Shown here: in pieces, positions 1 through 41,283 of the stretch
Layout: each line of letters opens with the position of its first letter
Position numbering within the stretch: the first letter of the stretch is position 1
NCBI RefSeq assembly: GCF_900129325.1
Contig: NZ_FQUP01000001.1
Coordinates: forward strand, 930,001 to 994,000
From: Kaistia soli DSM 19436
GTDB taxonomy: Bacteria > Pseudomonadota > Alphaproteobacteria > Rhizobiales > Kaistiaceae
DNA length: 64,000 nucleotides
Reading direction: 5' to 3'
Made by a program: the position numbers and the translations under genes
Notes under the pieces: generated by a model
Database searches by the model: none
What the model saw: only the letters and a program-made list of their open reading frames with translations
Told to the model about the DNA's origin: nothing

Positions 1-316
1 TGACGATGCTGATCGTGGACGGATCCATCGCCGTCAGCCGGCCAAGCTGGTTCTGCGAGACCTCGCCATGCTTCATGATCGTGGCCAATGCCGCCATCTG
101 GGTCGGCGTCAGGTCATGCTCGCCCAGGACCTCCTGGAACCGCATCGTAGCGCGCTGGTGGGCGCGGCGGATGATATGGGCCGGATGGACCGCAAGCTCA
201 TAGCCGGTCGAGTCGAAGAGATCGCGGTGCGTCGCCTTCGCTGCGGCCGATCGGGTCTGCATCGGCTCGCCGTCAAGGCTCAGCATTCCCCCGTCTGCTT
301 CATCATCCGATGCCAT
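1..316 (-). CDS. MarR-family transcriptional regulator (N-terminal part, runs off left edge)
   Basis: The visible 105 codons encode the front half of a MarR-type winged-helix protein. After about 35 variable residues comes a helical stretch (ELAVHPAHIIRRAHQRATM) and then the recognition region (LTPTQMAALATIMKHGEVSQ, then NQLGRLTAMDPSTIS). The ATG at 316-314 lies 32 bp behind the isochorismatase-like gene on the same strand, so this is probably the last gene of the nucleoside-importer operon. A local regulator in this position is a candidate to bind the paired 23-bp elements at 7854 and 8172. The C-terminal dimerisation helices lie outside the window. Family assignment is good; the target is inference. 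Confidence 0.8.
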   Translation of the reverse strand, partial: MASDDEADGGMLSLDGEPMQTRSAAAKATHRDLFDSTGYELAVHPAHIIRRAHQRATMRFQEVLGEHDLTPTQMAALATIMKHGEVSQNQLGRLTAMDPSTISIV

Positions 317-348: not shown

Positions 349-993
349 TCAGGCCGCGATCTGCTGATTGTCGATCACCTGGCCCGACGTCAGGGCGGCG
401 ACCACGGAGGCCGCGTCGCTCACAACCCCGAAATGGGTGGCGATGTCGTAGAGGGTCGATTCCTGCTCGCGCGGGCCGGTCGCAGCGCAGCAATCACGCG
501 GGACGACGACCTCATAGCCGTTGAAGAAGGCGTCGTGAACCGTCGATCGCACGCAGATATTGGTGACGACGCCGAATACGACCAGCTGGTCGACCAGCAT
601 GTCCTTCAGCACGAGATCGAGGTCGGTCTGGAAGAAGCTCGAATAGCGATGCTTGATGACGTGGATCTCGTCCTCGCGCGCGCCGAGATCTTCGATGATC
701 TCCGTCGCCCAGGTGCCCTCGACGCCATGCGGCGTGCGCTTCAGATATTCGCGGTCGCGGCGCATGTTGCGGCGATGGCTGTCATGCACCCAGATCACCG
801 GCGCGCCGACCTTGCGCGCCGCCTCGATGACCTGAAGCTGCGGGCCGACCAGCACCTCATAGCCCGGCAGCACCATCCGGCCGCCCGGCTTGCAGAATTC
901 GTTGATCATGTCGACCACGATCACGGCGGTGCACGCCGGATCGAGCCGCGCCTGCTCGGGATTGTTATGGGCCGAGAACACATCGACGGACAT
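349..993 (-). CDS. isochorismatase-like cysteine hydrolase (RutB/biuret-hydrolase type)
   Basis: A cytoplasmic amidohydrolase of the isochorismatase-like fold, 214 residues, normal for the family. The expected triad is visible: Asp28 in VIVVDM, Lys114 in HVIKHRYSSFF and the nucleophile Cys147 in VVTNICVRST. The K-x-RYS-x-FF and TNICV-x-ST patterns resemble ureidoacrylate/biuret hydrolases more than metal-dependent nicotinamidases, whose D-x-H-x3-H metal site is not obvious here. It sits 26 bp downstream of a nucleoside hydrolase in the same operon, so it probably hydrolyses an amide released from the imported nucleoside's base, for example a pyrimidine or nicotinamide product. The substrate is inferred from context only. 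Confidence 0.85.
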   Translation of the reverse strand: MSVDVFSAHNNPEQARLDPACTAVIVVDMINEFCKPGGRMVLPGYEVLVGPQLQVIEAARKVGAPVIWVHDSHRRNMRRDREYLKRTPHGVEGTWATEIIEDLGAREDEIHVIKHRYSSFFQTDLDLVLKDMLVDQLVVFGVVTNICVRSTVHDAFFNGYEVVVPRDCCAATGPREQESTLYDIATHFGVVSDAASVVAALTSGQVIDNQQIAA

Positions 994-1019: not shown

Positions 1020-1976
1020 TCAGTCCCGAAGCAGGCTGTAAAGCAATTCAAAGAAACGGTCGGAATCGACTTCCGTGCAGATATCGGCGTTGTCGGGCAG
1101 ACCGCGCTCCTTCCAGAAGTCGGCGACCGTCGCCCCGAACGCATAGGTCCCTGCAAGATCGACGCCGATATGCGCCGGCCGCGTGCGCACCAGGGTCGGA
1201 TCGATGATCAGCGCCAGCGCCAGCGGGTCATGCAGCGCGCCGCCGACGCCCATCGAGTTGCGATGCAGCTTTTCGTAGAACAGCAGCCAGTCGTTGACGA
1301 CGCGGCCGAGCTCGGTGTCGATCTTGCGGAATTCCGCATATTGCGGCTCCTCGACCAGCACCTGCATGGTGACGTCGAGGCCGACCATGGTCAGCTTGAT
1401 GCCGCTGTCGAGCACGATCTTCAGCGCCTCGGGATCGCAGAAGGCGTTGAACTCGGTCGGCGTGATGATCTCGCTCTTGCGATAGAAGACGCCGCCCATC
1501 CAGGTGACGTCTTTGATCTTCGGCAGCAGCTCGGGATATTTCAGCACGAAGAGGCCGATATTGCAGAGCGGCCCGGTCGCGACGATGCGCAGCGGCTCGT
1601 CCTGCTCGCGCAGCGTCTTGGCGATGAAGTCGACCGCATGCATCGGCTCGAGCGTCTTGGTCGCCATCGGCAGATAGGGCGAGCCCTCGAGGCCGCTCGG
1701 GCCATCGGCGGTGCCGAGGACCAGAGGGCGTGCGAGAGGCCGATAGCAGCCGGCCGCGACGGGAACATCGCCGGCGCCGATGAACTCCAGGATGCGCAGC
1801 GTATTGGAGACGCATTTGTCGAGCTCGGCATTACCGCAGGTGACGGTGACACCGAGAAGATCGATGGCCTTCGAGCGATGCGCCATCACCAGCGCGATGG
1901 CATCGTCATGGCCTGGATCGCAGTCGAGGATGATCGGCGTGGGGCGCGCAGGGGCAGTGGCTGTCATGGTCATCAT
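1020..1976 (-). CDS. nucleoside hydrolase (IU-NH family), copy 1
   Basis: Hydrolyses the N-glycosidic bond of ribonucleosides to ribose plus base, in the cytoplasm. The N-terminal calcium/ribose motif DCDPGHDD is intact. Other family blocks are ATGPLCNIG, a TEFNAFCDPEA block and LHDPLALAL, which keeps the His-Asp pair. The reading frame continues upstream to 2147, but that stretch overlaps the preceding gene. The start at 1976 gives 318 residues, the usual length, with a GAGGGA ribosome site; ATGs at 1973 and 1967 are alternatives. It lies 7 bp behind a second nucleoside hydrolase and downstream of the BMP-type importer, so it probably acts on what that importer brings in. Base preference cannot be read from sequence. 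Confidence 0.9.
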   Translation of the reverse strand: MMTMTATAPARPTPIILDCDPGHDDAIALVMAHRSKAIDLLGVTVTCGNAELDKCVSNTLRILEFIGAGDVPVAAGCYRPLARPLVLGTADGPSGLEGSPYLPMATKTLEPMHAVDFIAKTLREQDEPLRIVATGPLCNIGLFVLKYPELLPKIKDVTWMGGVFYRKSEIITPTEFNAFCDPEALKIVLDSGIKLTMVGLDVTMQVLVEEPQYAEFRKIDTELGRVVNDWLLFYEKLHRNSMGVGGALHDPLALALIIDPTLVRTRPAHIGVDLAGTYAFGATVADFWKERGLPDNADICTEVDSDRFFELLYSLLRD

Positions 1977-1983
1977 CCGTCCC

Positions 1984-2991
1984 TCAGGCCGCCTTGTAGA
2001 GTGCGATGGTCTGCTTGAAGAGCTGCATGAAGCGGCGCCCGTCGATATCGGTGCAGATGCGGGTGGTCTTCGGTCCGCCGCCGGGCAGCAGTTGCCGCCC
2101 GCGATAGGCGACGGTCTGGCCGCGTGCCAGTCGTCCGTCGAGGACAATGTCGCAATAGAGCGGTTCGGTCATGGTGCAGAGGCTCGGATCGAAGGCGAGC
2201 GCCACCGTGATGATGTCGTCCATCGGGAAGCCGACGAGATCGAAGAACTCGCGCCAGATGTCGATATAGATCGGGAAGGTGTCGCGGATCATGGCCAGCA
2301 CCGGATGATTGCCGGCACTCTCGAGATCGGCAAGGTCGTCGCGCGTCATCATCGACGCGGCGGCCCGGTTGTCCTCGCAAACATCGAGCGGCACCAGGAT
2401 CGTGTCGACACCCTGGTTGAGCACCACCCGCGCCGCCTCAGCATCGGCCCAGATATTGTATTCCGACAGCGGCGTGATGTTGCCGGGCGTGACGAAGTTG
2501 CCGCCGAGCAGCACCAGCCGCTTCACGTTGTCCTTGAGCCGCTCTTCCTGCAGGAATGCCATTGCGAGATTGGTCATCGGGCCCGTGGCGACCAGCGTGA
2601 TCTCTCCGGGCGAAGCCATCACCGTATCGATGATGAAATCGGCGGCGTGCTTGCCGATCGGCGATGTCGCTGGCTTCGGCGCGGGCGGGTTGAACTTCTT
2701 CAGGCGGTCGCCGAAGCGCGCGGTCAGCCGCTTCTCGAAATGAACCGGCGCTTCCATGTCGGCCTTGGCATTGCCGACGATCGGCCGCCAGGCGCCCTTG
2801 GCGACAGGAATGTCGCTCCGTCCGGCTAGGGCGAGCGTGTTGAGCACGACATTGGTCACCTGCTCGATCGGGCCCGCGGCCCCGGTGCAGGTCGTCACGC
2901 CCTCGAGCTTCAGCTGCGGCGAGACGGCGGCGAACAGCACGGCGAGAATGTCGTCGCCCGCCGAATCGACGTCGAGAATGATGCGTTCCAT
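1984..2991 (-). CDS. nucleoside hydrolase (IU-NH family), copy 2, variant active site
   Basis: A 335-residue ribonucleoside hydrolase paralogue, clearly diverged from the neighbouring copy. The metal motif is DVDSAGDD near residue 7, followed by the VATGPMTNLA and SEYNIWADAEA blocks. Where copy 1 has His-Asp-Pro near the C-terminus, this one reads MDDIITVALAF, so the conserved His is replaced by Met while Asp remains. That position contacts the leaving base in characterised relatives, so a different base specificity is likely. The stop of the permease gene at 2991 abuts the ATG here (1-bp overlap), which indicates translational coupling to the transporter. Two different hydrolases in one operon suggest a mixed nucleoside diet. 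Confidence 0.88.
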   Translation of the reverse strand: MERIILDVDSAGDDILAVLFAAVSPQLKLEGVTTCTGAAGPIEQVTNVVLNTLALAGRSDIPVAKGAWRPIVGNAKADMEAPVHFEKRLTARFGDRLKKFNPPAPKPATSPIGKHAADFIIDTVMASPGEITLVATGPMTNLAMAFLQEERLKDNVKRLVLLGGNFVTPGNITPLSEYNIWADAEAARVVLNQGVDTILVPLDVCEDNRAAASMMTRDDLADLESAGNHPVLAMIRDTFPIYIDIWREFFDLVGFPMDDIITVALAFDPSLCTMTEPLYCDIVLDGRLARGQTVAYRGRQLLPGGGPKTTRICTDIDGRRFMQLFKQTIALYKAA

Positions 2992-3983
2992 TAGGGTTCC
3001 CTCGCCAGTGCAGGCGGTTCAACGGCGGATTGTGGCTTGACCTGGAGCGCGCGGCCCATAGAGGCGAGCGTCTCCTGGATGATGCGCGGACGAGCGCGAT
3101 AGGAAAGCGCAAAAAGTGCGACCAGCGCCACCAGATAAGGCACCGCCAGCACCAGATAGGACGACACGCCGAAGGTCTGCAGGCGCAGCGACAGCGCATC
3201 GGAGAAGCCGAACAGCAGGCAGCCGGCGAGAATGCGCTTCGGATCGCCTGCGGAGAAGATCAGGATCGCCACCGCCATGAAGCCGCGACCCGACGACATA
3301 TTCTCGGTGAACATCGTCGTGTAGCCGAGCGAGAGATGCGCTCCGGCAAGCCCCGCCAGCACGCCGCAGAGCAGCGAGGCGGTGTAGCGGATCTTTGCGA
3401 TTGAAATGCCGAGCGCCTCGGCCGCCTCCGGCTTCTCGCCGACAACGCGGATATAGAGACCGAGCTTGGTGCGGTTGTAGAAGAGAATGAACAGCGGCAC
3501 GGCGAAGAAGGCGACGTAAACCAGCGGCGTGTAGCCGGAGATCAGCTGGCCGAACCAGCCCATCTCCTTGGCGAAGGGAATCCGCACGACCGGCAGGCCG
3601 ACAAGACCATGACCGAAGATCGAGCCGCGCGTGCCGAAGATCGCCTTCAGCAGAGAGACCGTCATGCCGCCGGCAAGGATGTTGAGCGCAAGGCCGACCA
3701 CGACCTCGTTGGCGCGGAAGGTGACGACGAGCAGCGCGAAGATGAAGGCGAGCGCCAGCGCCGCCGCGACGCCGCAAAGGAGGCCGATCCACGGAGAACC
3801 CGAGAAGATCGTCCCGATCACCGCGAAGAAGGCACCGAGCAGCATCTGGCCCTCAAGGCCGATATTGAAGATGCCGGCCCGCGTGGTGAATGAGCCGCCT
3901 AGCGCGACGAGGAGAATCGGCGCGGTGGTCCTGAGCGTCGCGACGATGAGCGCGACATTGAACAGCCGCTCTAGAATTTCCAT
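2991..3983 (-). CDS. nucleoside ABC transporter permease, BmpD/YufQ type (COG1079)
   Basis: Inner-membrane permease of 330 residues, one of two in a BMP-family nucleoside importer. It starts MEILERLFNVALIVATLRTT and carries the family block AGIFNIGLEGQMLLGAF near residue 40, followed by about eight hydrophobic segments. The open frame extends far upstream (to 4454), but only the ATG at 3983 matches family starts; it overlaps the other permease by 13 bp. Partners are the second permease (3971-5014), the double ATPase (5011-6552) and the binding protein (6741-7751). The hydrophilic tail ends in PQSAVEPPALAREP. Substrate class (nucleosides) follows from the family and the hydrolases next door. 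Confidence 0.9.
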   Translation of the reverse strand: MEILERLFNVALIVATLRTTAPILLVALGGSFTTRAGIFNIGLEGQMLLGAFFAVIGTIFSGSPWIGLLCGVAAALALAFIFALLVVTFRANEVVVGLALNILAGGMTVSLLKAIFGTRGSIFGHGLVGLPVVRIPFAKEMGWFGQLISGYTPLVYVAFFAVPLFILFYNRTKLGLYIRVVGEKPEAAEALGISIAKIRYTASLLCGVLAGLAGAHLSLGYTTMFTENMSSGRGFMAVAILIFSAGDPKRILAGCLLFGFSDALSLRLQTFGVSSYLVLAVPYLVALVALFALSYRARPRIIQETLASMGRALQVKPQSAVEPPALAREP

Positions 3984-5014
3984 CGACGCTCCCCCGCGGA
4001 ACTGTCGGCCGCACGGCGGCGGACGAGAATCTGGGCAGACACGGCGAGGATGATCAGCGCCTGGATGACGGTGATGATCTCGCGCGACGCCGTGGTGTCG
4101 ACTTCGAGCAGCAGCGAGCCGCTTCTGAGCGCACCGAAGAAAAGCGCCGTGATGATGGTGCCAAGCGGATTGCCATTGGCGAGCAGCGCCGCGATGACGC
4201 CGTCGAAGCCGAAGCCCGGCGCGAAACCTTCCATGAAGCGGTGATGCACGCCGAGTGACTCGATGCCGCCGGCAAGGCCGCCGACCGCCCCCGAGACAAG
4301 CAGCAGGAAGAAGGTCTGCTTCTTGATGTCGATGCCGCCATATTCGGCGAATTTGGGATTGGCCCCCATCTCGGTCACGGCGTAGCCGCGCGCCGTCCGG
4401 GTGAAGAACAGATGCGCCCCGACCGCCAGCAACAGCCCGATGACGAGGCCCCAATTGGCGCGCGAAAAGGAGAAGAGCTGCGGCAGGTAGGCGCTCTCCA
4501 GGATCGGCGGCGTGTCGGGCGCGCCGCCGGCCCGCTTGAAGATATTGATGGTGAGATAGGAGGTGATCAGCACCGCGACATAATTGGCGAGGATCGTCGA
4601 GACGACCTCGTTGGTCTGGTACCGCGCTCGGAAGAAAGCGGGGACGGCGACCCAGGCGAGGCCCGCGAAGGCGGCGAAGCCGAGACCGGCGAGAACATGC
4701 AGCACGGGCGGCATCTCGAAGGAGAAGCCGACCCAGGTGGCTGCGAAGCCACCCATGAAGAGCTGGCCTTCGATGCCGATATTGAACAGCCCGCCGCGCA
4801 GCGAGATGCAGGCCGCGACGCCGCAGATGAGGATCGGCGTCGTCTGCAGCAGCGTGCCAGCGATGCGCTCGGGATTGCCGAAGGCGCCGTCCATCAGCGT
4901 CAGGAAGACCTTGAGCGGGCTCTCGCTGACAGCGAGGATCACCATGGCGCCGAGCGCCAGGGCGATCATGATGGCGAGCGCCTGCCCGCTCAGGGCGGAA
5001 ATGCGGTCGTTCAC
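3971..5014 (-). CDS. nucleoside ABC transporter permease, YufP type (COG4603)
   Basis: Second permease of the BMP-type importer, 347 residues. It contains the family hallmark SLRGGLFNIGIEGQLFMGGF around residues 72-91, and multiple membrane spans such as ALAIMIALALGAMVILAVS and VLITSYLTINIF. The ATG at 5014 overlaps the ATPase stop by 4 bp (ATGA), so the two are translationally coupled. Its end overlaps the next permease by 13 bp. The gene order ATPase, YufP-type, YufQ-type is standard for bacterial nucleoside importers such as the B. subtilis NupNOPQ (YufNOPQ) system. Confidence 0.92.
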   Translation of the reverse strand: MNDRISALSGQALAIMIALALGAMVILAVSESPLKVFLTLMDGAFGNPERIAGTLLQTTPILICGVAACISLRGGLFNIGIEGQLFMGGFAATWVGFSFEMPPVLHVLAGLGFAAFAGLAWVAVPAFFRARYQTNEVVSTILANYVAVLITSYLTINIFKRAGGAPDTPPILESAYLPQLFSFSRANWGLVIGLLLAVGAHLFFTRTARGYAVTEMGANPKFAEYGGIDIKKQTFFLLLVSGAVGGLAGGIESLGVHHRFMEGFAPGFGFDGVIAALLANGNPLGTIITALFFGALRSGSLLLEVDTTASREIITVIQALIILAVSAQILVRRRAADSSAGERRWKF

Positions 5015-6552
5015 GAAGTCATCTCCCGCTCGACATGATGTCCGTGTTCGTCGACACCGGCCATGAGGAAGCCGAGGCGCTCCTCCGACACCGCGCCGCC
5101 ATCGAGATCGCCCATGATGCGGCCGGCGAACATCACCAGGATGCGGTCGGCAAGCGCGATGAGCTCGTCGAGCTGCACCGAGATGAGCAGGATCGCCTTG
5201 CCGGCGTCGCGCTGGCGCATGATCTCGGAATGGATCGCCTCGGTGGCACCGATATCGACACCGCGCGTTGGCTGATCGACGAGGAGGAAGCGGGCATCGC
5301 CCGAAAATTCGCGGGCCAACACCACTTTCTGGATGTTGCCGCCGGAGAGGCTCTTGACCGGGGCGGCGGCGCTGCGCGTGCGGATATCGAAGCGCTCGAT
5401 CAGGGCTTTCGACTGCTGCGCAAGATAGCCGCGGTCGATAATGCCACCGCGCGACCAGGGCGCCTTGTCCTGTCGCCCCATCAGCAGATTGAGCGAGACA
5501 CTGGCATTGCGATCGACCCCGCGCACCAGGCGGTCGCCGGGGACATGTGCGACGCCGGCGCCACGGATGGCACGGGCGGAAAGCCCGGTGAGCGATGTGT
5601 CTCCGAGGGTCACGCTGCCATGGGTCGCCGGGCGAAGGCCGGAAAGAACCTCGGCAAGCTCGGTCTGGCCGTTGCCGGCGACACCCGCGATGCCGACGAT
5701 CTCGCCGGCGTGGACGTCAAAGGAAACGCCGCGCAATGCATGCAGGCCGCGATCATCCCGAGCCCAGAGATCCTCGACGGCGAGGACACGCTCTCCGGCG
5801 ACCGGCGCACGGGGCCGACGATCGAAGGACACAAGCCGTCCGACCATCATCTGCACAAGGTCCGACTTGGTGAGCTCGGCGGTCGGCCGCGTCGCGACCT
5901 CCTTGCCATGGCGCAACACCGTGACCGTGTCCGAGACCTCCATCACCTCTTCAAGATGATGCGAGATAAAGAGCACCGTCATGCCCTTGGCGACGAAGCC
6001 GCGCAGCGTCTCAAAGAGATCACGGCTTTCCTGCGGCGTGAGAACCGCGGTCGGCTCGTCGAGAATGATCGTGCGGGCGCCGCGCGCCAGAACCTTCAGG
6101 ATCTCGATGCGCTGCTCGATGCCCACCGACAGCAGGCCAACCCGCTCCGTCGGATCGACCTTTAAACCGAACTGGCGCGACAGCTCGGCCGTGCGCTCGA
6201 TCTGAGCAGCATGATCGATCAGCCCGCCCTTCAGGATCTCCATGCCAAGAAAGACATTGTCGGCGACGGTCAGCGAGGGCACGAGCTTGAAATGCTGGTG
6301 CACCATGCCGATACCGCTGGCGATGGCCGCGGCTGGATTGGGCAGGACGACCGGTTGCCCGTCGATCAGGATCTCGCCCTCATCCGGCTGCAGCAGGCCG
6401 AACAAAACGTTCATCAGCGTCGTCTTGCCGGCGCCGTTCTCGCCGATGATGGCGTGAATGCTGCCGCGCTCGACGGCAAGGTTGACGCCTTCATTGGCGA
6501 CAAAACTGCCGAAACGCTTGGTGATCGATCTGAGTTCTATGGCGCGGGGCAT
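5011..6552 (-). CDS. nucleoside ABC transporter ATP-binding protein, two fused ABC domains (COG3845)
   Basis: A 513-residue cytoplasmic ATPase with two ABC modules, as usual for the BMP/ribose-class importers. Domain 1 has Walker A GENGAGKTT, a degenerate signature (LSVGIEQRIEILKVL) and Walker B TIILDEPTAVLT. Domain 2 has a modified P-loop (GVAGNGQTE), the canonical signature LSGGNIQKVVLARE and LLVDQPTRGVD. This asymmetry is normal in the family. The start at 6552 (MPRAIELRSITKRFGSF) is chosen because residues upstream do not resemble ABC proteins. It is separated from the binding-protein gene by 188 bp that contain a hairpin, and is followed by an ATGA overlap with the permease. Confidence 0.93.
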   Translation of the reverse strand: MPRAIELRSITKRFGSFVANEGVNLAVERGSIHAIIGENGAGKTTLMNVLFGLLQPDEGEILIDGQPVVLPNPAAAIASGIGMVHQHFKLVPSLTVADNVFLGMEILKGGLIDHAAQIERTAELSRQFGLKVDPTERVGLLSVGIEQRIEILKVLARGARTIILDEPTAVLTPQESRDLFETLRGFVAKGMTVLFISHHLEEVMEVSDTVTVLRHGKEVATRPTAELTKSDLVQMMVGRLVSFDRRPRAPVAGERVLAVEDLWARDDRGLHALRGVSFDVHAGEIVGIAGVAGNGQTELAEVLSGLRPATHGSVTLGDTSLTGLSARAIRGAGVAHVPGDRLVRGVDRNASVSLNLLMGRQDKAPWSRGGIIDRGYLAQQSKALIERFDIRTRSAAAPVKSLSGGNIQKVVLAREFSGDARFLLVDQPTRGVDIGATEAIHSEIMRQRDAGKAILLISVQLDELIALADRILVMFAGRIMGDLDGGAVSEERLGFLMAGVDEHGHHVEREMTS

Positions 6553-6646
6553 TTGGGCGATGGCCGAATGGGGGACGGTCGAGGATCGAGAATAGAAAGG
6601 TCCAGTCCGTGCCTGGAAGAGCGCGCGATCGCAGCGGATGACCCGC

Positions 6647-6740: not shown

Positions 6741-7751
6741 TTACTTGACCGTCGGCACCATGATCTTGCCGTCGACGACCTCAGCCTTCAGCGCTTCGAC
6801 CTTCGCCTTGACCTCGGCCGGGATCTTGTCCTCGACCTTGGGGCAGAGCAGAAGTTCGACGCCGCCGGACTTCAGATCATAGGTGTGGGTCGAGCCCGGT
6901 TCGATCGTCTTGCCGTCGACCACGTCCTTGACGAGGTTGTAGACCGCGACGTCGCCGCGCTTCAGCATCGAGGCCATCACATGGCCCGGTGCGACATCGC
7001 ACTGGTCGACGTCGACGCCGATCGAAAATTTGTCGGCGGCGGCGGAGGCCTGCAGCACGCCTTCGCCGGTCGGGCCGGCGACGTTGTAGACGATGTCCGA
7101 GCCCTGGCCGTAGAGCGCCATGGTCAGCTCGCTGCCCTTGGCGGGATCATCGAACGTGCCCGCGAAGACGCTGTCGACGCGAATGTCGGGCGCCGCCGCC
7201 TTGGCGCCAGCCTCATAGCCACCGAGGAAGTCGCGGATGACGGGGATGTCGCGGCCGCCGACGAAGCCTACCGCCTTGCCGTCGCCGAGGCCCTCGATCG
7301 CGCTACCCTTCTCCGCCATCAGCGCCGCGAGCGCGCCGGCCAGGAACGAGCCCTGGTTCTGCGCGAAGTTCGCATAGACGATCTGCTTCGAATCGAGCAC
7401 GCCGTCGATGAAGACGAATTTGGTGTTCGGATAGGCGGCCGCAGCCTTCTGCAACGCGTCGACCAGCTCCCAGCCCATCACGAAGACGAGATCGTATTCG
7501 CCGCTCTTGCCGACATTGTTGAACTGCTCTTCATAGTCGAGGGCGCGGTTTCCTGTGTCGATCAGCTTGACCTTTACGCCAAGATCCTTCTCGGCCTTCT
7601 TCAGGCCGTTGACGATCGACACGCCGAAACCTTGCGCGAAATAGCCGGAAATGGCGGCGATCGACACCTCCTTCGCGGAGGCTGCCGTGGCGGCGAACGC
7701 GAGCGCCGATGCGCCGCAGACCGCGATAAGACGACGAGACCAACTGGACAT
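6741..7751 (-). CDS. BMP-family nucleoside-binding periplasmic protein
   Basis: Substrate-binding protein (336 residues) of the importer encoded downstream. The start at 7751 gives a clean Sec signal (basic MSSWSRR, hydrophobic LIAVCGASALAFAATA, cleavage after ASA). There is no lipobox Cys, so it is a soluble periplasmic protein rather than a lipoprotein like PnrA/TmpC. Family blocks include KEVSIAAISGYFAQGFG, FAQNQGSFLAGALAALM and AVGFVGGRDIPVI. It is the first gene of the minus-strand operon, transcribed from a promoter at about 7871-7898 that overlaps one copy of the 23-bp operator. Nucleoside specificity is inferred from the family and from the two hydrolases in the operon. Confidence 0.9.
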   Translation of the reverse strand: MSSWSRRLIAVCGASALAFAATAASAKEVSIAAISGYFAQGFGVSIVNGLKKAEKDLGVKVKLIDTGNRALDYEEQFNNVGKSGEYDLVFVMGWELVDALQKAAAAYPNTKFVFIDGVLDSKQIVYANFAQNQGSFLAGALAALMAEKGSAIEGLGDGKAVGFVGGRDIPVIRDFLGGYEAGAKAAAPDIRVDSVFAGTFDDPAKGSELTMALYGQGSDIVYNVAGPTGEGVLQASAAADKFSIGVDVDQCDVAPGHVMASMLKRGDVAVYNLVKDVVDGKTIEPGSTHTYDLKSGGVELLLCPKVEDKIPAEVKAKVEALKAEVVDGKIMVPTVK

Positions 7752-7853: not shown

Positions 7854-7876
7854 TCGTTGATGGTCTAACAATCCTG
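7854..7876 (-). promoter_or_regulatory. operator copy 1 of a perfect 23-bp inverted duplicate
   Basis: The 23 bases here are the exact reverse complement of 8172-8194. Read on the minus strand the core is TTGTTAGACCATCAA, an imperfect dyad (TTG-N-T ... A-N-CAA) that also contains a FadR-like TGGTCTAACA on the other strand. It overlaps the predicted -10 of the minus-strand promoter. MarR or GntR(FCD) proteins bind sites of this shape; which one acts here is unknown. Confidence 0.75.
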
Positions 7877-7898
7877 AATGAGATTTGGCGCTTGTCAA
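7871..7898 (-). promoter_or_regulatory. candidate promoter of the BMP importer operon
   Basis: On the minus strand, TTGACA occupies 7898-7893, followed by a 16-bp spacer and the weak -10 hexamer CAGGAT at 7876-7871. The -10 lies inside the 23-bp operator. The layout mirrors the opposite promoter at 8148-8177, which is the main reason to believe it. Confidence 0.5.
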
Positions 7899-8147
7899 TC
7901 GAGATTGATGCCCAAGCTTGCAGCAAGGTCGCCCACTGTGCATGCACCGGGCAGGCGACCACGCCGAAAGGCTGAACGCAATTCAACAATTCGGCTGCTT
8001 TCTCCCGTGTTTCGCGGCCTCATGTGTCGACTCCGCGACCACCTATTGTGCTCAAATGCGGGTCAGCCTCGGCCACGGGCGCATGTTTGAATAAATTCTA
8101 GCCAGAGACACGAAGCGATTGCGCACTTTATCGGCGTGCGCAGCCAA

Positions 8148-8177
8148 TTGACAAAACTCAAATCCGGCGCACAGGAT
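8148..8177 (+). promoter_or_regulatory. candidate promoter of the plus-strand sugar importer operon
   Basis: TTGACA at 8148-8153 is followed by an 18-bp spacer and CAGGAT at 8172-8177, the first bases of the second 23-bp operator copy. The -35 and -10 hexamers are identical to those of the opposite promoter, but the spacer differs by 2 bp. The -10 is weak, so activation or an alternative -10 is possible. Confidence 0.5.
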
Positions 8178-8194
8178 TGTTAGACCATCAACGA
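8172..8194 (+). promoter_or_regulatory. operator copy 2 of the 23-bp inverted duplicate
   Basis: Exact reverse complement of 7854-7876; the identity ends abruptly at both edges. It sits immediately downstream of the candidate -35 and 58 bp before the ATG at 8253, so a bound protein would cover the -10 and the start of transcription. Confidence 0.75.
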
Positions 8195-8252: not shown

Positions 8253-9599
8253 ATGCCAATCAAGCAGGGAATGGTTCGTCGCTCACCGCGGAGCTCGATC
8301 GCCGGCATCATGTCCGCCGCGATCCTTGGCCTCGGCCTCGCGGGCACGCCGGCTTTCGCCGACGGGATCACGCTGAAGGTCTTTGGCGGCTCATCGCTGG
8401 ACAAGCTGGCGCCGCGGCAGGCGCCGGATGAACAGGCCAAGATCCAGCAGGAGGTCATCGAGGGCTTCCTGAAGGCCAATCCCGATGTCAGCGCCATCGA
8501 ATGGGACGCGCAGGGCCCGCAGGGCGACGCGATCCAGCGCCTGATGACCGCCCGCATGGCGGACCAGGAGATGGACCTCATCGCCTGCCCGGCCTTCTAC
8601 ACCAACGGCGCCTATGTCCGCCGCAAGCTGGTGATGCCGATCACCGACAAGATCAAGCCGTTCCAGGACCGGATCGATGCCGCCGCGCTCGGCGCCTTCA
8701 CGATCAATGGCGAGGTCTACGGCGTTCCGATCTCGACGCTGTCGACCTCGACGATCTTCTACAATGTCGACCTGTTCAAGAAGCTCGGCATTCCCGTTCC
8801 GCCGACCTATGACGACCTCAAGGCCGCGGTGCCGAAGTTCAAGGAAGCCGGCATCATTCCGCTGCTGCATCAGGGCTCGAACACGGTCATGTGGCCGATG
8901 TGGTATTTCGAGACGCTGTCGCAGGCGACCGGCGATGCCGTCGCCAAAACGCAGAAGAACCTCGAAGGCACCGCCAAGTTCTCCGACGCGCCCGACGTCG
9001 AGGCCTTCACGCTGATCAAGCAGTGGGTCGATGACGGCATCCTGTCGAAGGATTCGCTGGCGGTCGACATGGACGGCATGCGCGCCGCCTTCGCGTCCGG
9101 CAAGAGCGCGATGTACTATGGCGGCACCTGGGAAGTTCCCTCGCTTCAGTCGAGCGTCAAGGACTTCAAGTGGGGCGTCTTCGCGTTCCCGAAGATGGAC
9201 GGCACGCCCGGCGCGCCCGGCCATGGCGGCGGTGCCGATAACGGCATCTGCGTCTCCTCCTCGATCAAGCCCGAAAAGCTCGATGCCGCCATCCGCTTCG
9301 TCAGTTACCTGACGCAGCCGGAAGTCGCCTCGCTCTATCTCGCCCCCGAGCAGCCGATCGCAGCCTCGATCAAGGGCGTGCCGCAGATCGAGGACGCCTA
9401 CGCCGTCGAACTGCGCAAGGACGCGTTCCCGTCGACGATCAAGTTCCTCGACTGGATCTGGCCGTCGGAAGTCTCGACCGCGACGGCCTCGGCTATTGCC
9501 GGCGTCGTCGGCGGCACGACGACCCCGGAAGCCGCGGCACAGTCGATCCAGGCCGTGTTCGACGACCTGAAGGCACAGGGCCAGTGGCCGCCGAAGTAA
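8253..9599 (+). CDS. sugar ABC transporter substrate-binding protein (family 1, MalE-like)
   Basis: Periplasmic binding protein of 448 residues for a carbohydrate importer. The ATG at 8253 is preceded by GGAGAG and gives a Sec signal: MPIKQGMVRRSPRSS, then a hydrophobic run, ending TPAFA before DGITLKVFGG. The body shows the two-lobe family-1 pattern, with a VPISTLSTSTIFYNVDLFKKLG block and MYYGGTWEVPSL. It opens the operon with isomerase, two permeases, oxidoreductase, nucleoside hydrolase, epimerase and SDR. The operon encodes no ATPase. The ligand is unknown; a nucleoside hydrolase downstream suggests a glycosylated base or modified nucleoside, but a plain sugar is equally possible. Confidence 0.9.
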   Translation: MPIKQGMVRRSPRSSIAGIMSAAILGLGLAGTPAFADGITLKVFGGSSLDKLAPRQAPDEQAKIQQEVIEGFLKANPDVSAIEWDAQGPQGDAIQRLMTARMADQEMDLIACPAFYTNGAYVRRKLVMPITDKIKPFQDRIDAAALGAFTINGEVYGVPISTLSTSTIFYNVDLFKKLGIPVPPTYDDLKAAVPKFKEAGIIPLLHQGSNTVMWPMWYFETLSQATGDAVAKTQKNLEGTAKFSDAPDVEAFTLIKQWVDDGILSKDSLAVDMDGMRAAFASGKSAMYYGGTWEVPSLQSSVKDFKWGVFAFPKMDGTPGAPGHGGGADNGICVSSSIKPEKLDAAIRFVSYLTQPEVASLYLAPEQPIAASIKGVPQIEDAYAVELRKDAFPSTIKFLDWIWPSEVSTATASAIAGVVGGTTTPEAAAQSIQAVFDDLKAQGQWPPK

Positions 9600-9641: not shown

Positions 9642-9713
9642 CTTTCGCCTGAACATGAGGCAGCGCCCGAGAACGTGCCGCCTCTCCCCTTATCTTGCAG
9701 CACTGAGAGCGCC

Positions 9714-10649
9714 ATGACCGCATCCCGGGCCGAACGCCAGAAATTCTCGATCGGTTATCACCTGAACAGCTGGGACCTCGCCGGCCTGCCGCTGACGCCC
9801 GCGATCGAGTTCCTCGCAAGCCAAGGCTTCGGCTGGTTCGAGATTCTCGCCTTCACGAGCCTCTCCGACCAATATGCCCGCAAATACATGCAGCTCGGCA
9901 ACCAGGCGCCGATGGGCGTGACGACCGACACCGACATCCTGCGCCGCTATGCGCTGCTGTCGGAAGCGCAGAGCGCCTACGGCATCAATCTCTCCTCGCT
10001 CTATGTGAACGCGATCTTCACCAACCCAGTCGCGTGGGAGTATGAGCGCGACGTCCTGGTGGCGCTGGCACGTCTCCTCAAGGGCTTCGGCGCGCCGGTG
10101 CTGGTGCTGGGCGGCGGGCCTTCTGAGGGCATTGCCGGCCCGCATACGGCCGAGGATTACAAGGCGTTCTGCCGCTCGCTCGAGGATATCGGCCGGCGCA
10201 CGCATGATCTCGGCATCGAGACGGTCTATCACCCCCATCTCGACACCTTCATCGAGCGGCGCGACCAACTCGACCGCATGATGGACGAGCTCGACACGCG
10301 CCATGCCGGCCTCTGCATCGACCCGGCGCATCTCGCGCATACCAATTCCGATCCAGTCGGCACGCTGAAGACCTACATCTCGGCGGTTCGCTACATGCAT
10401 CTGAAGGACACGCGCGTCGATCCGGCCCTGAAGGGCTATGACCGCTACGCCGCGTTCTGCGAGCTCGGCGCCGGCGTTGTCGATCTGCCCGGCCTCGTCG
10501 ACGTGCTGCTCGACGCCGACTATGCGGGCCTTGCCATCATCGAGCTCGACGCCTCGCAGAAGACGGCCGAGCAGTCGACGCTCGAGAGCATCGCCTATGT
10601 CCGCGATACGCTCGGCCTCGTCCTCACGCCGCAGAAGTCCGCGGCATGA
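9714..10649 (+). CDS. sugar phosphate isomerase/epimerase-like TIM barrel (IolE-like)
   Basis: A 311-residue xylose-isomerase-like TIM barrel, the fold of inosose dehydratase, hydroxypyruvate isomerase and 3-epimerases. Metal-site residues are recognisable: YHPHLDTF, CIDPAHLAH, MHLKDTR and AIIELD supply the His, Asp and Glu ligands. The ATG at 9714 is chosen because the 13 residues upstream are not family-like. Its stop overlaps the permease ATG (ATGA), so it is coupled to transport. With the Gfo/Idh oxidoreductase three genes on, it probably acts on an oxidised or keto form of the imported sugar. The exact reaction cannot be assigned. Confidence 0.82.
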   Translation: MTASRAERQKFSIGYHLNSWDLAGLPLTPAIEFLASQGFGWFEILAFTSLSDQYARKYMQLGNQAPMGVTTDTDILRRYALLSEAQSAYGINLSSLYVNAIFTNPVAWEYERDVLVALARLLKGFGAPVLVLGGGPSEGIAGPHTAEDYKAFCRSLEDIGRRTHDLGIETVYHPHLDTFIERRDQLDRMMDELDTRHAGLCIDPAHLAHTNSDPVGTLKTYISAVRYMHLKDTRVDPALKGYDRYAAFCELGAGVVDLPGLVDVLLDADYAGLAIIELDASQKTAEQSTLESIAYVRDTLGLVLTPQKSAA

Positions 10650-11608
10650 GCGCGGCGCCGGCTCCGTCCCCGGATGCCGGTGCAGGCCGGGGCGCCCTCC
10701 TCCCGAGGCGCCCCGGCCGAACCAGCCATGCGCCGTCAGGCGATGGGCTTGCCGCCGCGGCGATGATCCTGCCCGCGGCGATCCTGTTCGGCCTCTTCTA
10801 TGTCTGGCCCTTCGCCAGCGGCTTCTGGCTTTCGCTGCACAGCTGGGACGGCTTCTCGCCCCCTGTCTTCATCGGGATGGCCAATTATGTTCGTCTGGCC
10901 AGCGACCGGATCTTCCTCGGCGCGCTCGAAAACAACATCATCTTCGTCATCGCCATCCTGATCCTGAAGAATGTGCTCGGCCTCGGCCTTGCCCTGCTGC
11001 TCAACCGGGCGATGGTCGGACGATCCTTCTTCCGCGCGGCGGCCTTCGTACCCGTGACGATGTCCTTCGTAGCGGTCGGACTGCTGTGGTCCTGGATCTA
11101 CAATCCGGTCTTCGGGCTGCTCAATGCGGGGCTCGACCTGTTCGGCCTCGGCTTCCTGAAACATTCTTGGCTCGGCGATGCCAATACCGCGCTCTATGCC
11201 ATCATTGCGGTCGATGTCTGGAAATGGCTCGGCTTCCACGGCGTCATCTATCTCGCGGGACTGCAGACCATCCCCGCCGAGCTCTATGAGTCAGCCACGA
11301 TGGACGGCGCCGGACGCTTCCGCCGCTTCTGGCATGTGACTCTGCCGCTGATCATGCCGATCGTCTTCATCAACTCGATCCTCGGCCTCTCCGGCGCCTT
11401 CGTGCGCAATTTCGACATCGTCTATGTGCTGACCAAAGGCGGCCCGAACCACGCCACCGAGGTCGCCCTCACCTATATGATGACCAAGGCCTTCCAGGAC
11501 GGCGCGATGAGCTATGCGGCTGCCATGGGCTATGTGCTGTTCATGATCGTCGGCCTCGCCTGTGTCGGCCTGCTCGCGTTGATGCGGCGCCAGAGGCTTG
11601 CGCTATGA
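10646..11608 (+). CDS. carbohydrate ABC transporter permease (MalF/UgpA type)
   Basis: Inner-membrane permease of 320 residues. A proline- and glycine-rich cytoplasmic N-terminus is followed by six membrane spans, starting AAAMILPAAILFGLFYVWPF. The EAA loop that docks the ATPase is at ELYESATMDGAGRFRRFWHVT, and LPLIMP follows. It overlaps both neighbours by 4 bp (ATGA). Partners are the binding protein at 8253 and the permease at 11605. The ATPase must come from elsewhere; the MalK-type proteins at 42446 and 43555 are candidates. Confidence 0.92.
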   Translation: MSAAPAPSPDAGAGRGALLPRRPGRTSHAPSGDGLAAAAMILPAAILFGLFYVWPFASGFWLSLHSWDGFSPPVFIGMANYVRLASDRIFLGALENNIIFVIAILILKNVLGLGLALLLNRAMVGRSFFRAAAFVPVTMSFVAVGLLWSWIYNPVFGLLNAGLDLFGLGFLKHSWLGDANTALYAIIAVDVWKWLGFHGVIYLAGLQTIPAELYESATMDGAGRFRRFWHVTLPLIMPIVFINSILGLSGAFVRNFDIVYVLTKGGPNHATEVALTYMMTKAFQDGAMSYAAAMGYVLFMIVGLACVGLLALMRRQRLAL

Positions 11609-12513
11609 GCAATGTCCTTGCCCCCTCGCAGACCCCTGCACGGCGCAGCTTGGAAGCGCGCTTCGGCGACACGCTCGCGGCGCTCGGCTGGCGCGGCCTC
11701 GCCGAGCTCGGCCTCGTCTATCTCGCGCTATTCGTCGTGCTGGTGCAGACGATCTATCCGCTGTTCTGGGTGCTGTCAGGCTCGCTGAAGACCAAGCAGG
11801 AAGTGATCACCAATGTCTGGGGCCCGCCATCGGGCCTTGCCGTCTCGAATTATGCCGAAGCCTGGCGCATGGCCGGCATGGGCGCCCGCATCCTCAACAG
11901 CGTCGGCATCACGATGGCGGCGCTGGTCATCCTGGTCCTTGCCGCGACGCCCTGCGCCTATGCCATCGCGCGGCTCAAATTCCGCGGCCGAATCGCCGTG
12001 ACGGCGGCGATCGTCGCCGCGATGCTGGTGCCGCCGCAGGTGATGGCGATCCCGCTGTTCCTGGTCGCGCGCGATCTCGGCCTCATCAACAATCGCTTGG
12101 GCATCGCGATCATCTACGCTGCCACGTCATTGCCGCTGTCGGTGTTCATCCTCCGCAGCTTCTTCATGACGCTGCCAGCCGATCTCGAAGATGCCGCCCG
12201 GGTCGATGGCGCCTCGCGCCTGGCAATCCTCGTGCACATCATGCTGCCGCTGATCCGGCCGGGCGTTGCGCTCGTCCTGATCTTCGGCTTCATCGAGATC
12301 TGGAACGACTTCTTCCTGGCCTTCCTGCTGCTGCGAAAGCCTGAGCTTCAGACGATCCCGCTCGGCCTCGTCAGCTTCTTCCAGCAATATGACTCGCTCT
12401 GGAATCTCTATTTCGCCGCGCTGATGATCACGACGCTGCCCGTGATCGTCGTCTTTCTCCTGATGCAGAGGCAGTTCATCGCCGGGCTCACGGCCGGGGC
12501 GGTAAAGGGCTAA
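11605..12513 (+). CDS. carbohydrate ABC transporter permease (MalG/UgpE type)
   Basis: Second permease of the importer, 302 residues with six predicted spans. The EAA loop is clear: DLEDAARVDGASRLAILVHI, followed by MLPLIRPG. A typical MalG-type C-terminus (QRQFIAGLTAGAVKG) is present. The ATG at 11605 overlaps the previous stop, and the next gene starts 1 bp after its TAA. It forms the transmembrane pore with the 10646 product. Confidence 0.93.
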   Translation: MSNVLAPSQTPARRSLEARFGDTLAALGWRGLAELGLVYLALFVVLVQTIYPLFWVLSGSLKTKQEVITNVWGPPSGLAVSNYAEAWRMAGMGARILNSVGITMAALVILVLAATPCAYAIARLKFRGRIAVTAAIVAAMLVPPQVMAIPLFLVARDLGLINNRLGIAIIYAATSLPLSVFILRSFFMTLPADLEDAARVDGASRLAILVHIMLPLIRPGVALVLIFGFIEIWNDFFLAFLLLRKPELQTIPLGLVSFFQQYDSLWNLYFAALMITTLPVIVVFLLMQRQFIAGLTAGAVKG

Positions 12514-12514
12514 C

Positions 12515-13588
12515 ATGAACGACACGGTCATCGGCGTCGGTGTCATCGGCTGCGGCGAGATCGCCCAGCTGATGCACCTTCCCTTCATCCACGAGCTGCC
12601 CTCTTTTCGGATCGCGGCGCTCTGCGACATCTCGGTCGGCGTGATCGAGAAGCTCGGCGCGCAATATGGCGTCGAGGCTCTCTACAGCGACTACACGGCG
12701 CTCATCGCCGATCCCGCCGTCGATGCGGTCGTCGTCTGCACCTATGACCATGGCGACATCGTCGCGGCAGCGCTCGCGGCCGGCAAGCATGTCTTCGTCG
12801 AGAAGCCGCTCGCCTTCACGCCCGAGGAGGCGCGGCCGATGGTCGAGAAGGCCGAGGCGAGCGGCCTCGTCGCCATGATCGGCTACATGAAGCTCTACGA
12901 TCCCGGCTACGAGATCGGGCTCGAGAAGATCGCCACGATCGGCACGCCGCGCTCGATCCACATCCATGACTTCGCCGGCCGCTTCGACACCTATGGCGCG
13001 CTCTATACGCAGGTGAAGGCGACCGACATCCCGGCCGACGTGATGGCGACCAGCCGCGCCGCGGCCGCCGGGCGCATCGAGGCGAGTCTCGGCCCGGATC
13101 ATGCCGGCTATGTCGGGCTCTATCTGCTGCTGCTGATGCTCGGCAGCCACGACCTTGCGGTGCTGCGCGGCGCCTTCGGCAGCGAGGCGCGCGTGCGCTA
13201 TGCCCAGCCCGTCGGCGAGGACCAGTTGCTCGCCGTGCTCGAATTCGGCGAAGGCGTCCCCTGCTATCTCGATATCGGCGTCGCCCATTACGAATGGTGG
13301 GACGAGTTCCTGCACGTGCATGGCGACACCGACGAGGTGCGCATCCAGTTCCAGAATCCCTATTGGCGCCAGGCTTCGGCCGTCGTCACGGTGCGCGAGG
13401 CGGCGCCGAGCGGCGCGTCCGAGCGGCGGCTGCCGGGCGTGCCCGACACCGCCTTCCGCCGCGAATGGAAGCATTTCGCCGACTGCATCCTGAACGGCGC
13501 CAAGCCGCGCACGCCGCTTTCCGGCGGCCTTGATGATCTCAACCTCGCGGTCGCGATCATCAAGGCGATGCCACCGAAACCCGTCTGA
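12515..13588 (+). CDS. Gfo/Idh/MocA-family NAD(P)-dependent oxidoreductase
   Basis: A 357-residue sugar dehydrogenase-like protein. The N-terminal Rossmann motif is GVGVIGCGEIAQLMHLP, and the family signature VFVEKPLAFTPEEA lies near residue 95. The C-terminal half is the alpha/beta substrate domain. Members oxidise a hydroxyl on sugars, inositols or sugar conjugates, often at C3 or C2. It starts 1 bp after the permease stop, so it is in the importer operon. Together with the TIM-barrel isomerase and nucleoside hydrolase it suggests oxidation of a sugar ring or glycoside before cleavage; this is inference. A second family member (52850) sits in another cluster. Confidence 0.88.
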   Translation: MNDTVIGVGVIGCGEIAQLMHLPFIHELPSFRIAALCDISVGVIEKLGAQYGVEALYSDYTALIADPAVDAVVVCTYDHGDIVAAALAAGKHVFVEKPLAFTPEEARPMVEKAEASGLVAMIGYMKLYDPGYEIGLEKIATIGTPRSIHIHDFAGRFDTYGALYTQVKATDIPADVMATSRAAAAGRIEASLGPDHAGYVGLYLLLLMLGSHDLAVLRGAFGSEARVRYAQPVGEDQLLAVLEFGEGVPCYLDIGVAHYEWWDEFLHVHGDTDEVRIQFQNPYWRQASAVVTVREAAPSGASERRLPGVPDTAFRREWKHFADCILNGAKPRTPLSGGLDDLNLAVAIIKAMPPKPV

Positions 13589-13613
13589 TCGTTCTTTCCA
13601 CAAGAGGCACGCG

Positions 13614-14585
13614 ATGAGCGCCAACCCGCAAGCTGCAAAACGTCACAAGCTGATCCTCGACGTCGATACCGGCACGGACGACGCCGTCGCGATCATGCTG
13701 GCAGCGCTACATCCGACGCTGGAGCTCGTCGCCTGCACGACCGTCAACGGCAATCGGACAATCGAGCAGACGACCGACAATACGCTGCGCGTGCTCGATC
13801 ACATCGGCCGCGGCGATATTCCCGTGCATGCGGGCCTCAGCCGGCCGATCGCCCGGCTCGACTTCCCGATCCCGCGCGCCGAGCGCGATCCCGGCGTGCA
13901 TTTCGTCGAGATGCCGCTGGCGCCGGCGCGCTCGCGCGCCAAAGCGACCGATGCCGTCGAGTTCCTCATCGAGACCTATCGCGCCGCGACCGAGCCGATC
14001 ACGCTCGTGCCCGTCGGCCCGCTCTCCAACATCGCCTCGGCGCTCGCGCTGTTCCCGAAGCTCGTCGACTTCGTGCCGGAGGTGGTGATCATGGGCGGCG
14101 GCCACGCCGTTTCCAATGTCACGCCTTCGGCCGAATTCAACATCTGGGCCGATCCCGAAGCGGCGGCATTGGTCTTCGCCGCCGGCTTCCGCAATCTGAC
14201 GCTGGTGCCGCTCGACGCGACGCACAAGGCGGTGATCAGCCTCGACCAGTGCCGCGTCTTGCGCGAGAGCGGCAAGCCAGCGGCGATCGCTGCGGCGACT
14301 TTCGTCGAGAAGCGTATCGAAGGCTATCGCTCCTACCAGACGCTCGACGACCAGGACGCGGCGCCGATCCATGACGCGCTCTGTGTCCACCATCTCGTCG
14401 AGCGCAATGTCATCGAAACCTTCGACTACCATGTCGCCGTCGAGACGACCGGCGCCCTGACCGTCGGGCGAACCGTGATCGATACCAATTTCCGCAGCCG
14501 CCAGCCTGCCAACGCCAAGGTTGCGATGAACGCCGATACCGAACGCTTCGGCCGCTTCGTCGTCGACACGCTCACCCGCTTCTGA
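13614..14585 (+). CDS. nucleoside hydrolase (IU-NH family), copy 3
   Basis: Ribonucleoside hydrolase of 323 residues starting at the ATG 13614; the frame upstream overlaps the oxidoreductase. The metal motif DVDTGTDD is intact and is followed by TTVNGN, PVGPLSNIASALALF and AEFNIWADPEAA. The late block reads APIHDALC, keeping the His-Asp pair. Most similar in pattern to copy 1, but in a different operon headed by a family-1 sugar-binding protein. This is the best clue that the 8253-16263 operon handles an N-ribosyl compound rather than a free sugar. Confidence 0.9.
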   Translation: MSANPQAAKRHKLILDVDTGTDDAVAIMLAALHPTLELVACTTVNGNRTIEQTTDNTLRVLDHIGRGDIPVHAGLSRPIARLDFPIPRAERDPGVHFVEMPLAPARSRAKATDAVEFLIETYRAATEPITLVPVGPLSNIASALALFPKLVDFVPEVVIMGGGHAVSNVTPSAEFNIWADPEAAALVFAAGFRNLTLVPLDATHKAVISLDQCRVLRESGKPAAIAAATFVEKRIEGYRSYQTLDDQDAAPIHDALCVHHLVERNVIETFDYHVAVETTGALTVGRTVIDTNFRSRQPANAKVAMNADTERFGRFVVDTLTRF

Positions 14586-14596
14586 AGGAGCCGCGC

Positions 14597-15430
14597 ATGC
14601 TCATCGCCCTCACCGGCTCGTCGGGACTTCTTGGCCGCGCCATCGCCGATGGGCTGATGGCAGCCGGTCATCAGGTTCGCGGCATCGACGCCGTACCGCC
14701 CACGACGAAGCTCACCAGCCATCTGACTGTATCGCTGGAGGATTTCGGCGCGACGGTTCAGGCGCTGGCCGGCGCCGACGTCGTGGTCCATGCCGCGGCC
14801 ATTCCGCGCCCGACCGGCCGCGTCGCGAGCGACGTCTTCTCGACCAATATGGCACTCGCCTTCAACGTGGTGGAAGCCTCGGTCATGCTCGGCATCCGTC
14901 GTTTCGTCTATGCTTCGTCCTTTTCTGTGCTAGGCTTCCCTTTCTTCGAGAAGCCCGTCGATCTCGCCTATCTGCCCATCGACGAGGCCCATCCGCTGGC
15001 GCCGCAGGACGCCTATGCGCTGTCGAAGACACTGGGCGAGGACATCGTCGACGCGGCAGTGAGACGCGGCCGGCTCGATGCAGTCAGCCTGCGCATGCCG
15101 TGGATCCAGAGTGCGGCGACTTTCATGAAGGATGTCGGACCGCGACGGGCGAGCGCCGAGTCGGGCCGTGATCTCTGGTCCTATATCGATGCGCGCGACG
15201 CGGCTGCGGCCTTCCGCGCGGCCGTCGAGGCCAAGACCGCCGGGCATCTGCGGCTCTATGTCAGCGCGGCCGACACTTACAGCGAGACGCCGACCGCGGA
15301 GCTGATCCGCACCGCTTTTCCGAACGTAACCATCAAACGTCCGCTCGAAGGCCATGCCACGGTTATCGATACCGCGGCAGCCCGAGCCGCGCTCGGCTTC
15401 GAGGCGCGGCATTCGTGGCGCGACTATTGA
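14597..15430 (+). CDS. NAD-dependent epimerase/dehydratase (extended SDR)
   Basis: A 277-residue protein with an N-terminal Rossmann motif TGSSGLLGRAIADGL and the catalytic Y-x3-K in DAYALSKTLGE (about residue 140); the preceding Ser lies in VYASSFSVLG. Shorter than typical sugar-nucleotide epimerases, closer to uronate dehydrogenase-like or small NAD(P)-dependent epimerases. An AAGGAG ribosome site precedes the ATG by about 8 bp. It belongs to the importer operon (11 bp after the hydrolase) and probably oxidises or epimerises a pentose-derived intermediate. The reaction is not assignable. Confidence 0.82.
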   Translation: MLIALTGSSGLLGRAIADGLMAAGHQVRGIDAVPPTTKLTSHLTVSLEDFGATVQALAGADVVVHAAAIPRPTGRVASDVFSTNMALAFNVVEASVMLGIRRFVYASSFSVLGFPFFEKPVDLAYLPIDEAHPLAPQDAYALSKTLGEDIVDAAVRRGRLDAVSLRMPWIQSAATFMKDVGPRRASAESGRDLWSYIDARDAAAAFRAAVEAKTAGHLRLYVSAADTYSETPTAELIRTAFPNVTIKRPLEGHATVIDTAAARAALGFEARHSWRDY

Positions 15431-15441
15431 GGGAGAAAGCC

Positions 15442-16263
15442 ATGCCAAGCGGACGTTTCGACGGAAAAGTGGCGCTGGTCACGGGCGGAGCCGGGACGAT
15501 CGGCCTCGCAGCCTGCCGCCGCTTCGCGTCGGAGGGCGCCTCGATCGCTCTCATCGATCGCGATCCGGCGCGGATCGCGAGCGCCGCCGAAGTGCTTCGG
15601 ACTGCCGGCGTCAATCTCTTCACCGTCGCTGCCGATGTCGGCGACGAAGCAGCCGTGGCAACGGCCGTCGACAGCATCGTCGAGACGCTGGGGCGGATCG
15701 ACATCGTCTTCAACAATGCCGGCATCCCCGGCAAGGTGGCACCGGTCTACGAGCTCTCTTCAGAAGATTGGGACGACATTGTCCGGATCAACCTCCGTGG
15801 CGTTTTCCTGATCCAGCGTTATGCGCTCCGCGCCATGATCGCGGGCCGGATCGCTGGCTCGGTCGTAAACATGGCCTCGTCCATGTCGGGTTGGGATGTG
15901 CTTGCCGGCGGGGCCGGCTATGCCTCGACCAAGCACGCCATTCTCGGCCTCACCAAGGTCGCCGCCTTCGACGTCGCGCGCTACGGCATCCGCGTCAACG
16001 CCGTCTGCCCGGGCGTCATCGAGACGAGGCTCGGCGTTCCAGCCGGGGACGAGGACGAATATCGGCGCGGCATCGAGCGCTTCGCCAACCGCATTCCGCT
16101 GAGGCGGATCGGTCAGCCCGAGGATGTCGCGGCGGTCGTCGCCTTCCTCGCCTCCGACGACGCCCGCCATGTGACGGGCGTCGGCTGGCTCATCGATGGA
16201 GGCCAGACCATGCAGAGCTGGGCCAACGCGCCGGACGCGGAGGCCTATCCGCTGCAGCGCTGA
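15442..16263 (+). CDS. short-chain dehydrogenase/reductase (classical SDR)
   Basis: A 273-residue NAD(P)-dependent alcohol/sugar dehydrogenase. Visible motifs are TGGAGTIGLAA (cofactor loop, residues 13-23), NNAGIPGK, the catalytic region MASSMSG ... YASTKHAI and PGVIETRLG. Asp39 in LIDRDPAR after the second beta strand suggests NAD preference. The start at 15442 follows a GGGAGAAAG ribosome site. It is the last gene of the plus-strand operon; the aldo/keto reductase converges 9 bp away, with no obvious terminator between. Confidence 0.88.
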   Translation: MPSGRFDGKVALVTGGAGTIGLAACRRFASEGASIALIDRDPARIASAAEVLRTAGVNLFTVAADVGDEAAVATAVDSIVETLGRIDIVFNNAGIPGKVAPVYELSSEDWDDIVRINLRGVFLIQRYALRAMIAGRIAGSVVNMASSMSGWDVLAGGAGYASTKHAILGLTKVAAFDVARYGIRVNAVCPGVIETRLGVPAGDEDEYRRGIERFANRIPLRRIGQPEDVAAVVAFLASDDARHVTGVGWLIDGGQTMQSWANAPDAEAYPLQR

Positions 16264-41266: not shown

Positions 41267-41283
41267 CAATCACGGGATTTGAT

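Follow-up and report, generated by a model that had tools for sequence, protein, structure and literature searches.

Mirror-image promoter elements of two divergent import operons in Kaistia soli are predicted operators of a MarR-family regulator

The window analyzed here is a 64,000-nucleotide stretch of the Kaistia soli genome (G000 below; all other G-numbers denote relatives), and near its left end two operons diverge from an intergenic region that carries a 23-bp sequence in inverted duplicate. The left operon encodes, in order, a BMP-type binding protein, an ATPase, two permeases, two nucleoside hydrolases, an isochorismatase-family hydrolase, a MarR regulator, an enamidase-like amidohydrolase and a ketopantoate-reductase-like protein; its genes lie on the same strand with mostly small gaps and are probably read as one transcript. 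The features are as follows.

1–316, minus strand: MarR regulator, the proposed repressor (PF01047); runs off the window, full gene at L017:11772–12317
349–993, minus strand: isochorismatase-family cysteine hydrolase (PF00857; best named model RutB-like, below its cut-off)
1020–2991, minus strand: two nucleoside hydrolases (PF01156 twice)
2991–5014, minus strand: two permeases of the left operon (PF02653 twice)
5011–6600, minus strand: ABC ATPase with two nucleotide-binding domains (PF00005; start approximate)
6741–7751, minus strand: BMP/PnrA-type substrate-binding protein, first gene of the left operon (PF02608, E 3e-56; gene order conserved)
7854–7876, minus strand: left predicted operator unit, with its 15-bp core TTGTTAGACCATCAA at 7857–7871; overlaps the -10 of the BMP-operon promoter
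7871–7876, minus strand: probable -10 (CAGGAT) of the left promoter, 16-bp spacer to TTGACA
7893–7898, minus strand: -35 (TTGACA) of the left promoter, invariant in a five-genome alignment, constant 21 bp to the core
8148–8153, plus strand: -35 (TTGACA) of the right promoter, invariant in the five-genome alignment, 23 bp to the core
8172–8194, plus strand: right predicted operator unit, core at 8177–8191; overlaps the -10 CAGGAT at 8172–8177
8253–9599, plus strand: extracellular solute-binding protein (SBP), first gene of the right operon (PF13416/PF01547)
9711–13588, plus strand: TIM-barrel isomerase-like gene, two permeases and a Gfo/Idh/MocA oxidoreductase
13608–14585, plus strand: third nucleoside hydrolase, missing from the operon in the relatives read through
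14597–16263, plus strand: NAD-epimerase-like gene and an SDR

The original prediction held that the two 23-mers form a perfect inverted duplicate, and sequence comparison bears this out: 7854–7876 (TCGTTGATGGTCTAACAATCCTG) is the exact reverse complement of 8172–8194, an arrangement with a chance of ~1e-8 per 455-bp gap and 2e-4 per whole window. The promoters assigned to the pair, each with a CAGGAT -10 behind TTGACA at spacers of 16 and 18 bp, are likewise present in the sequence and agree with the comparative spacing. On the right, 18 bp separate TTGACA (8148–8153) from CAGGAT (8172–8177) on the plus strand, and the left CAGGAT with its 16-bp spacer recurs in G025, G019, G024, G015, and G016. 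CAGGAT is a weak -10, matching TATAAT at three of six positions, and a generic promoter scan detected neither TTGACA/CAGGAT promoter; both are nonetheless credible because the distance from -35 to core is kept across relatives. A terminator search of the region found none, and a structured RNA at the element was rejected, the sole match being a sub-threshold, chance one in coding region.

A genome-wide search for the 15-bp core, the check proposed with the original prediction, yielded four predicted operators rather than two. Specifically, the 5.23-Mb genome holds four exact copies of the core against 0.001 expected and, across the whole genome, none with one or two mismatches; the 11 matches in the three-mismatch tail are background, the reversed control giving 34 matches at ≤3 mismatches. 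The third operator lies 3.7 kb left of the window (L017:8259), ahead of two PF06684 genes and behind TTGACA-N17-GATTGT, in the opposite orientation. An FAD oxidoreductase gene upstream of the PF06684 genes was considered as a further regulon member and rejected, as the operator lies downstream of it and the G015, G016, and G021 clusters gave no match. The fourth operator (L016:5649) is 74 kb to the left of the pair in the window, upstream of genes for glutaryl-CoA dehydrogenase and a CoA-transferase III. Unlike the sites at the other promoters, it is located upstream of a possible -10 (CTATGGT); its span (L016:5648–5665) runs into the last codons and the stop codon of a gene for a ferredoxin reductase, which makes its first bases coding as well. 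This site is present in G000, G025, G019, and G024 and was not found in G021, G015, or G016, and thus looks lineage-specific. Six other Kaistia clusters have the glutaryl-CoA dehydrogenase/CoA-transferase genes next to MarR, which links the fourth operator to the regulon independently; these genes are tied to the pathway by clustering or by operator, depending on lineage. Through the two further copies, both window operons are tied to genes that look like those of a pathway for breaking down a nicotinate-like ring.

Conservation upstream of orthologous operons, on which the original prediction had been staked beforehand, was found, and both the set of sites and the gene order are kept in relatives. 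We collected 48 operator sites from relatives in three families, and their consensus (TtgTwwGAyyAtCAA; positions 1, 4, 7, 8, 11, 13, 14, and 15 invariant) reflects conservation that is partly by construction, with ≤2 mismatches allowed. A perfect 18-mer occurs in four genus members (reversed control, zero matches), and a one-mismatch copy of it occurs in another genus of the family. Each promoter class mostly keeps a -35-to-core distance of its own. For BMP this is 21 bp in every one of the six Kaistia genomes in which the site was found, with 22 bp in G027 and 23 bp in G002; for SBP it is 23 bp with few exceptions; and for PF06684, where the operator orientation is opposite, it is 22 bp in eight genomes. 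In the five-genome alignment the operators and -35 boxes form conserved islands, and there is essentially no conservation midway between the two operons. Placement of the operator over the -10/start region fits repression. The central dinucleotide (positions 5–6) is TA at the Kaistia PF06684 and glutaryl-CoA dehydrogenase sites and often AT at BMP and SBP sites.

The element also travels with the MarR gene. A degenerate motif (TTGTWWGAYYATCAAYRA, one mismatch allowed) scanned in family genomes gave 36 matches versus one in the control, and it occurs in 16 of 18 genomes with the MarR orthologue and in 0 of 10 without it (Fisher p 5e-6, ignoring relatedness), a co-occurrence confounded by shared ancestry. 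The two MarR carriers without the motif at the threshold used are G003 and G012, the latter having a slightly more diverged version. In G003 the MarR orthologue (62% identical) lies on an 11.6-kb contig (C94, L100) that holds neither operator nor cluster.

Two types of cluster were seen within Kaistia. In the type to which this genome belongs, BMP and SBP (or epimerase) operons face each other with an operator at each promoter, though in G021 the operator was found at only one of the two. In the other (group-2 Kaistia, seven species), the SBP or epimerase operon faces isochorismatase–MarR across one operator, and the BMP operon lies outside the cluster. At six of the seven group-2 loci the glutaryl-CoA dehydrogenase/CoA-transferase, PF06684, and enamidase genes are at the same locus (the seventh is partial, on a short contig); the single site is the one left in this group, its PF06684/enamidase genes having no operator. 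Three genomes from beyond the family (G229, G266, and G112) have this gene set too. Each holds three or four operators, which precede BMP (in two of the three genomes), PF06684, isochorismatase–MarR, and SBP/epimerase genes, and their MarR is 60–61% identical. The right operon is less constant. Only here does the third nucleoside hydrolase (13608–14585) separate the Gfo/Idh gene from the epimerase gene; in all relatives whose operon could be followed past this position the two are direct neighbors, and some relatives showed just the epimerase–SDR part. The idea that both operons share one regulon is supported, but because of this absence and this reduction the two import routes are not its conserved core.

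We conclude that the two 23-bp elements most likely serve as operators for the MarR-family repressor whose gene lies in the left operon, a reading to which we give a probability of about 85%. MarR is the likely binder because it is present in every mapped cluster, co-occurs with the motif, and is encoded in an operon that itself carries the motif (the left promoter in G000 and the isochorismatase–MarR promoters in G229, G266, and G112). Its winged-helix domain is well recognized (PF01047, 53.5 bits versus a cut-off of 24.6). The palindrome in the 15-mer is imperfect, which counts against the reading, as do the two MarR carriers without the motif at the threshold used and the single site left in group-2 Kaistia. 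Within the operator group the MarRs have the stretch DPSTIS in common in the recognition region, whereas most of the distant MarRs that lack the operator show DPATI or some other change there. From these comparisons we infer both that MarR binds and that it represses. A MarR dimer at 7857–7871 or 8177–8191 would cover the -10/start region of the respective TTGACA promoter and block RNA polymerase, and a catabolite released in the pathway would lift the block. The same MarR would control the two remote operators, at the PF06684 genes (L017:8259) and at the glutaryl-CoA dehydrogenase/CoA-transferase III genes (L016:5649).

The original prediction had left the regulator as either MarR or a GntR protein of the FCD type, and co-inheritance makes MarR the better candidate. 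FCD GntR operators follow the consensus TNGTNNNACNA, which TTGTTAGACCA and 38 of the 48 sites fit, and the genome encodes 33 FCD genes, one of them in the window (41284–42024); an operator for an FCD regulator encoded elsewhere is nevertheless improbable. Ten of the 48 sites break TNGTNNNACNA (nine with GAT or GAG for GAC, one with TCA for the first TTG), the outer CAA is invariant although it lies outside that consensus, and no FCD gene was seen with the cluster among the genes mapped, where MarR was present every time. The FCD gene in the window was itself rejected as the regulator, lying 33 kb away with no linkage; it adjoins an enolase-superfamily gene (40109–41269), with which it probably forms a local regulon of its own.

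How the pair came to be a mirror image is a separate matter, and here an earlier account, in which a single inverted duplication copied -10 and operator together, is not supported. The 23-mers are identical (23/23) only in G000, G025, and G015, the variable dinucleotide being TA in G000 and G025 and AT in G015; they agree at 21 of 23 positions in G019 and G024, 19 in G016, 17 in G027, and 20 in G002, so the pair matches at 17–21 positions in five other genomes, and single copies of the operator occur at other places. With perfect 23-bp inverted ends separated by 295 bp, the pair might also be read as the terminal inverted repeats of a 341-bp MITE-like mobile element, but we regard this as next to impossible: the 341-bp stretch is single-copy in the genome, two other promoters carry one copy of the sequence each, and between genomes the spacing varies from 121 to 335 bp with unrelated middles while the element stays fixed relative to the -35 at each promoter. 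Nor do the spacings favor one looped operator pair that requires helical phasing. Identical sites ~320 bp apart in G000 and G025 would suit looping, yet the eight spacings (320, 321, 312, 312, 322, 335, 121, and 140 bp; 30.5, 30.6, 29.7, 29.7, 30.7, 31.9, 11.5, and 13.3 turns) have no common helical phase, the seven group-2 Kaistia keep one site at the divergent region, and the third and fourth genomic operators are single, all of which makes looping very unlikely. Two independently regulated promoter–operator units standing back to back are the simplest account of the symmetry, and the full identity of the pair may come from selection for the same best operator or from occasional conversion.

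A known regulator offers a guide to the ligand. BpsR of Bordetella is a MarR-family catabolic repressor that responds to 6-hydroxynicotinate, through strictly conserved Tyr15, His23, Arg26, and His32, the last contacting the ring nitrogen (PMC6837509). The present MarR shares its fold family (E 3e-12 to 6PCP; PDB chains 6PCO/6PCP matched), and all 21 MarR orthologues of the operator group keep Tyr15, His23, and Arg26 of the BpsR pocket without exception; His32, however, is Ala in this group, so we do not class the MarR as a BpsR orthologue, and its best solved-structure matches are 2NNN and PcaV rather than BpsR. Both regulons include an apparent ring-catabolism pathway, but the genes here are of the enamidase type and not a nic cluster. 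We infer that the inducer resembles 6-hydroxynicotinate and derives from an N-ribosylated nicotinate-like compound.

The composition of the left operon is that of BMP/PnrA-type nucleoside ABC importers with nucleoside hydrolases, in domains and in gene order; unlike those systems, it also includes an enamidase homologue and an isochorismatase-family hydrolase. In Eubacterium barkeri and Azorhizobium, enamidase belongs to a reductive nicotinate pathway, the E. barkeri enzyme yielding 2-formylglutarate during reductive nicotinate breakdown (PMC9304392). Compared with that pathway, the amidohydrolase here is a full-length enamidase homologue (aligned end to end with PDB 2VUN, E 1e-110), and the glutaryl-CoA dehydrogenase and CoA-transferase III could pass a C5 diacid to central metabolism. 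We know of no nucleoside importer, nucleoside hydrolases, or PF06684 genes in the reductive nicotinate pathways described. Because of the enamidase homologue, three of the four BpsR contacts, the BMP-type importer, and the nucleoside hydrolases, our guess is that the substrate may be a nicotinate-like N-riboside, although relatives lack the third nucleoside hydrolase in the right operon. More tentatively, as a reading we hold less likely than not, we suggest a dedicated pathway in which an N-ribosylated nicotinate-type compound (e.g., nicotinate or nicotinamide riboside) would be imported, nucleoside hydrolases would free the ring, an enamidase route and the uncharacterised PF06684 pair would open it, the route would end in glutaryl-CoA, and MarR would sense a 6-hydroxynicotinate-like intermediate. 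The literature searched gave no description of the regulon, of nicotinate-riboside catabolism, of nicotinate use in Kaistia, or of PF06684; catabolic regulons under MarR control are familiar, and greater novelty would lie in the pathway, if it is real. What began as an isolated repeat is now a defined regulon open to test: a candidate repressor can be named, there are four targets, and conservation extends over three families of the order.

The glutaryl-CoA dehydrogenase is a strong assignment from sequence similarity (E 6e-222 to 4W9U, a chain labeled simply as an acyl-CoA dehydrogenase, and 1e-180 to chains that bear the name glutaryl-CoA dehydrogenase). In G016 its genes adjoin a different MarR (L190:5862–6245; 35% identical). 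Directly upstream of the glutaryl-CoA dehydrogenase operator in K. soli lie a desaturase-family membrane protein, a Rieske-type ferredoxin, and the ferredoxin reductase (L016:2976–5660), and 13 of the 14 genomes of the genus retain the gene for the desaturase-family protein.
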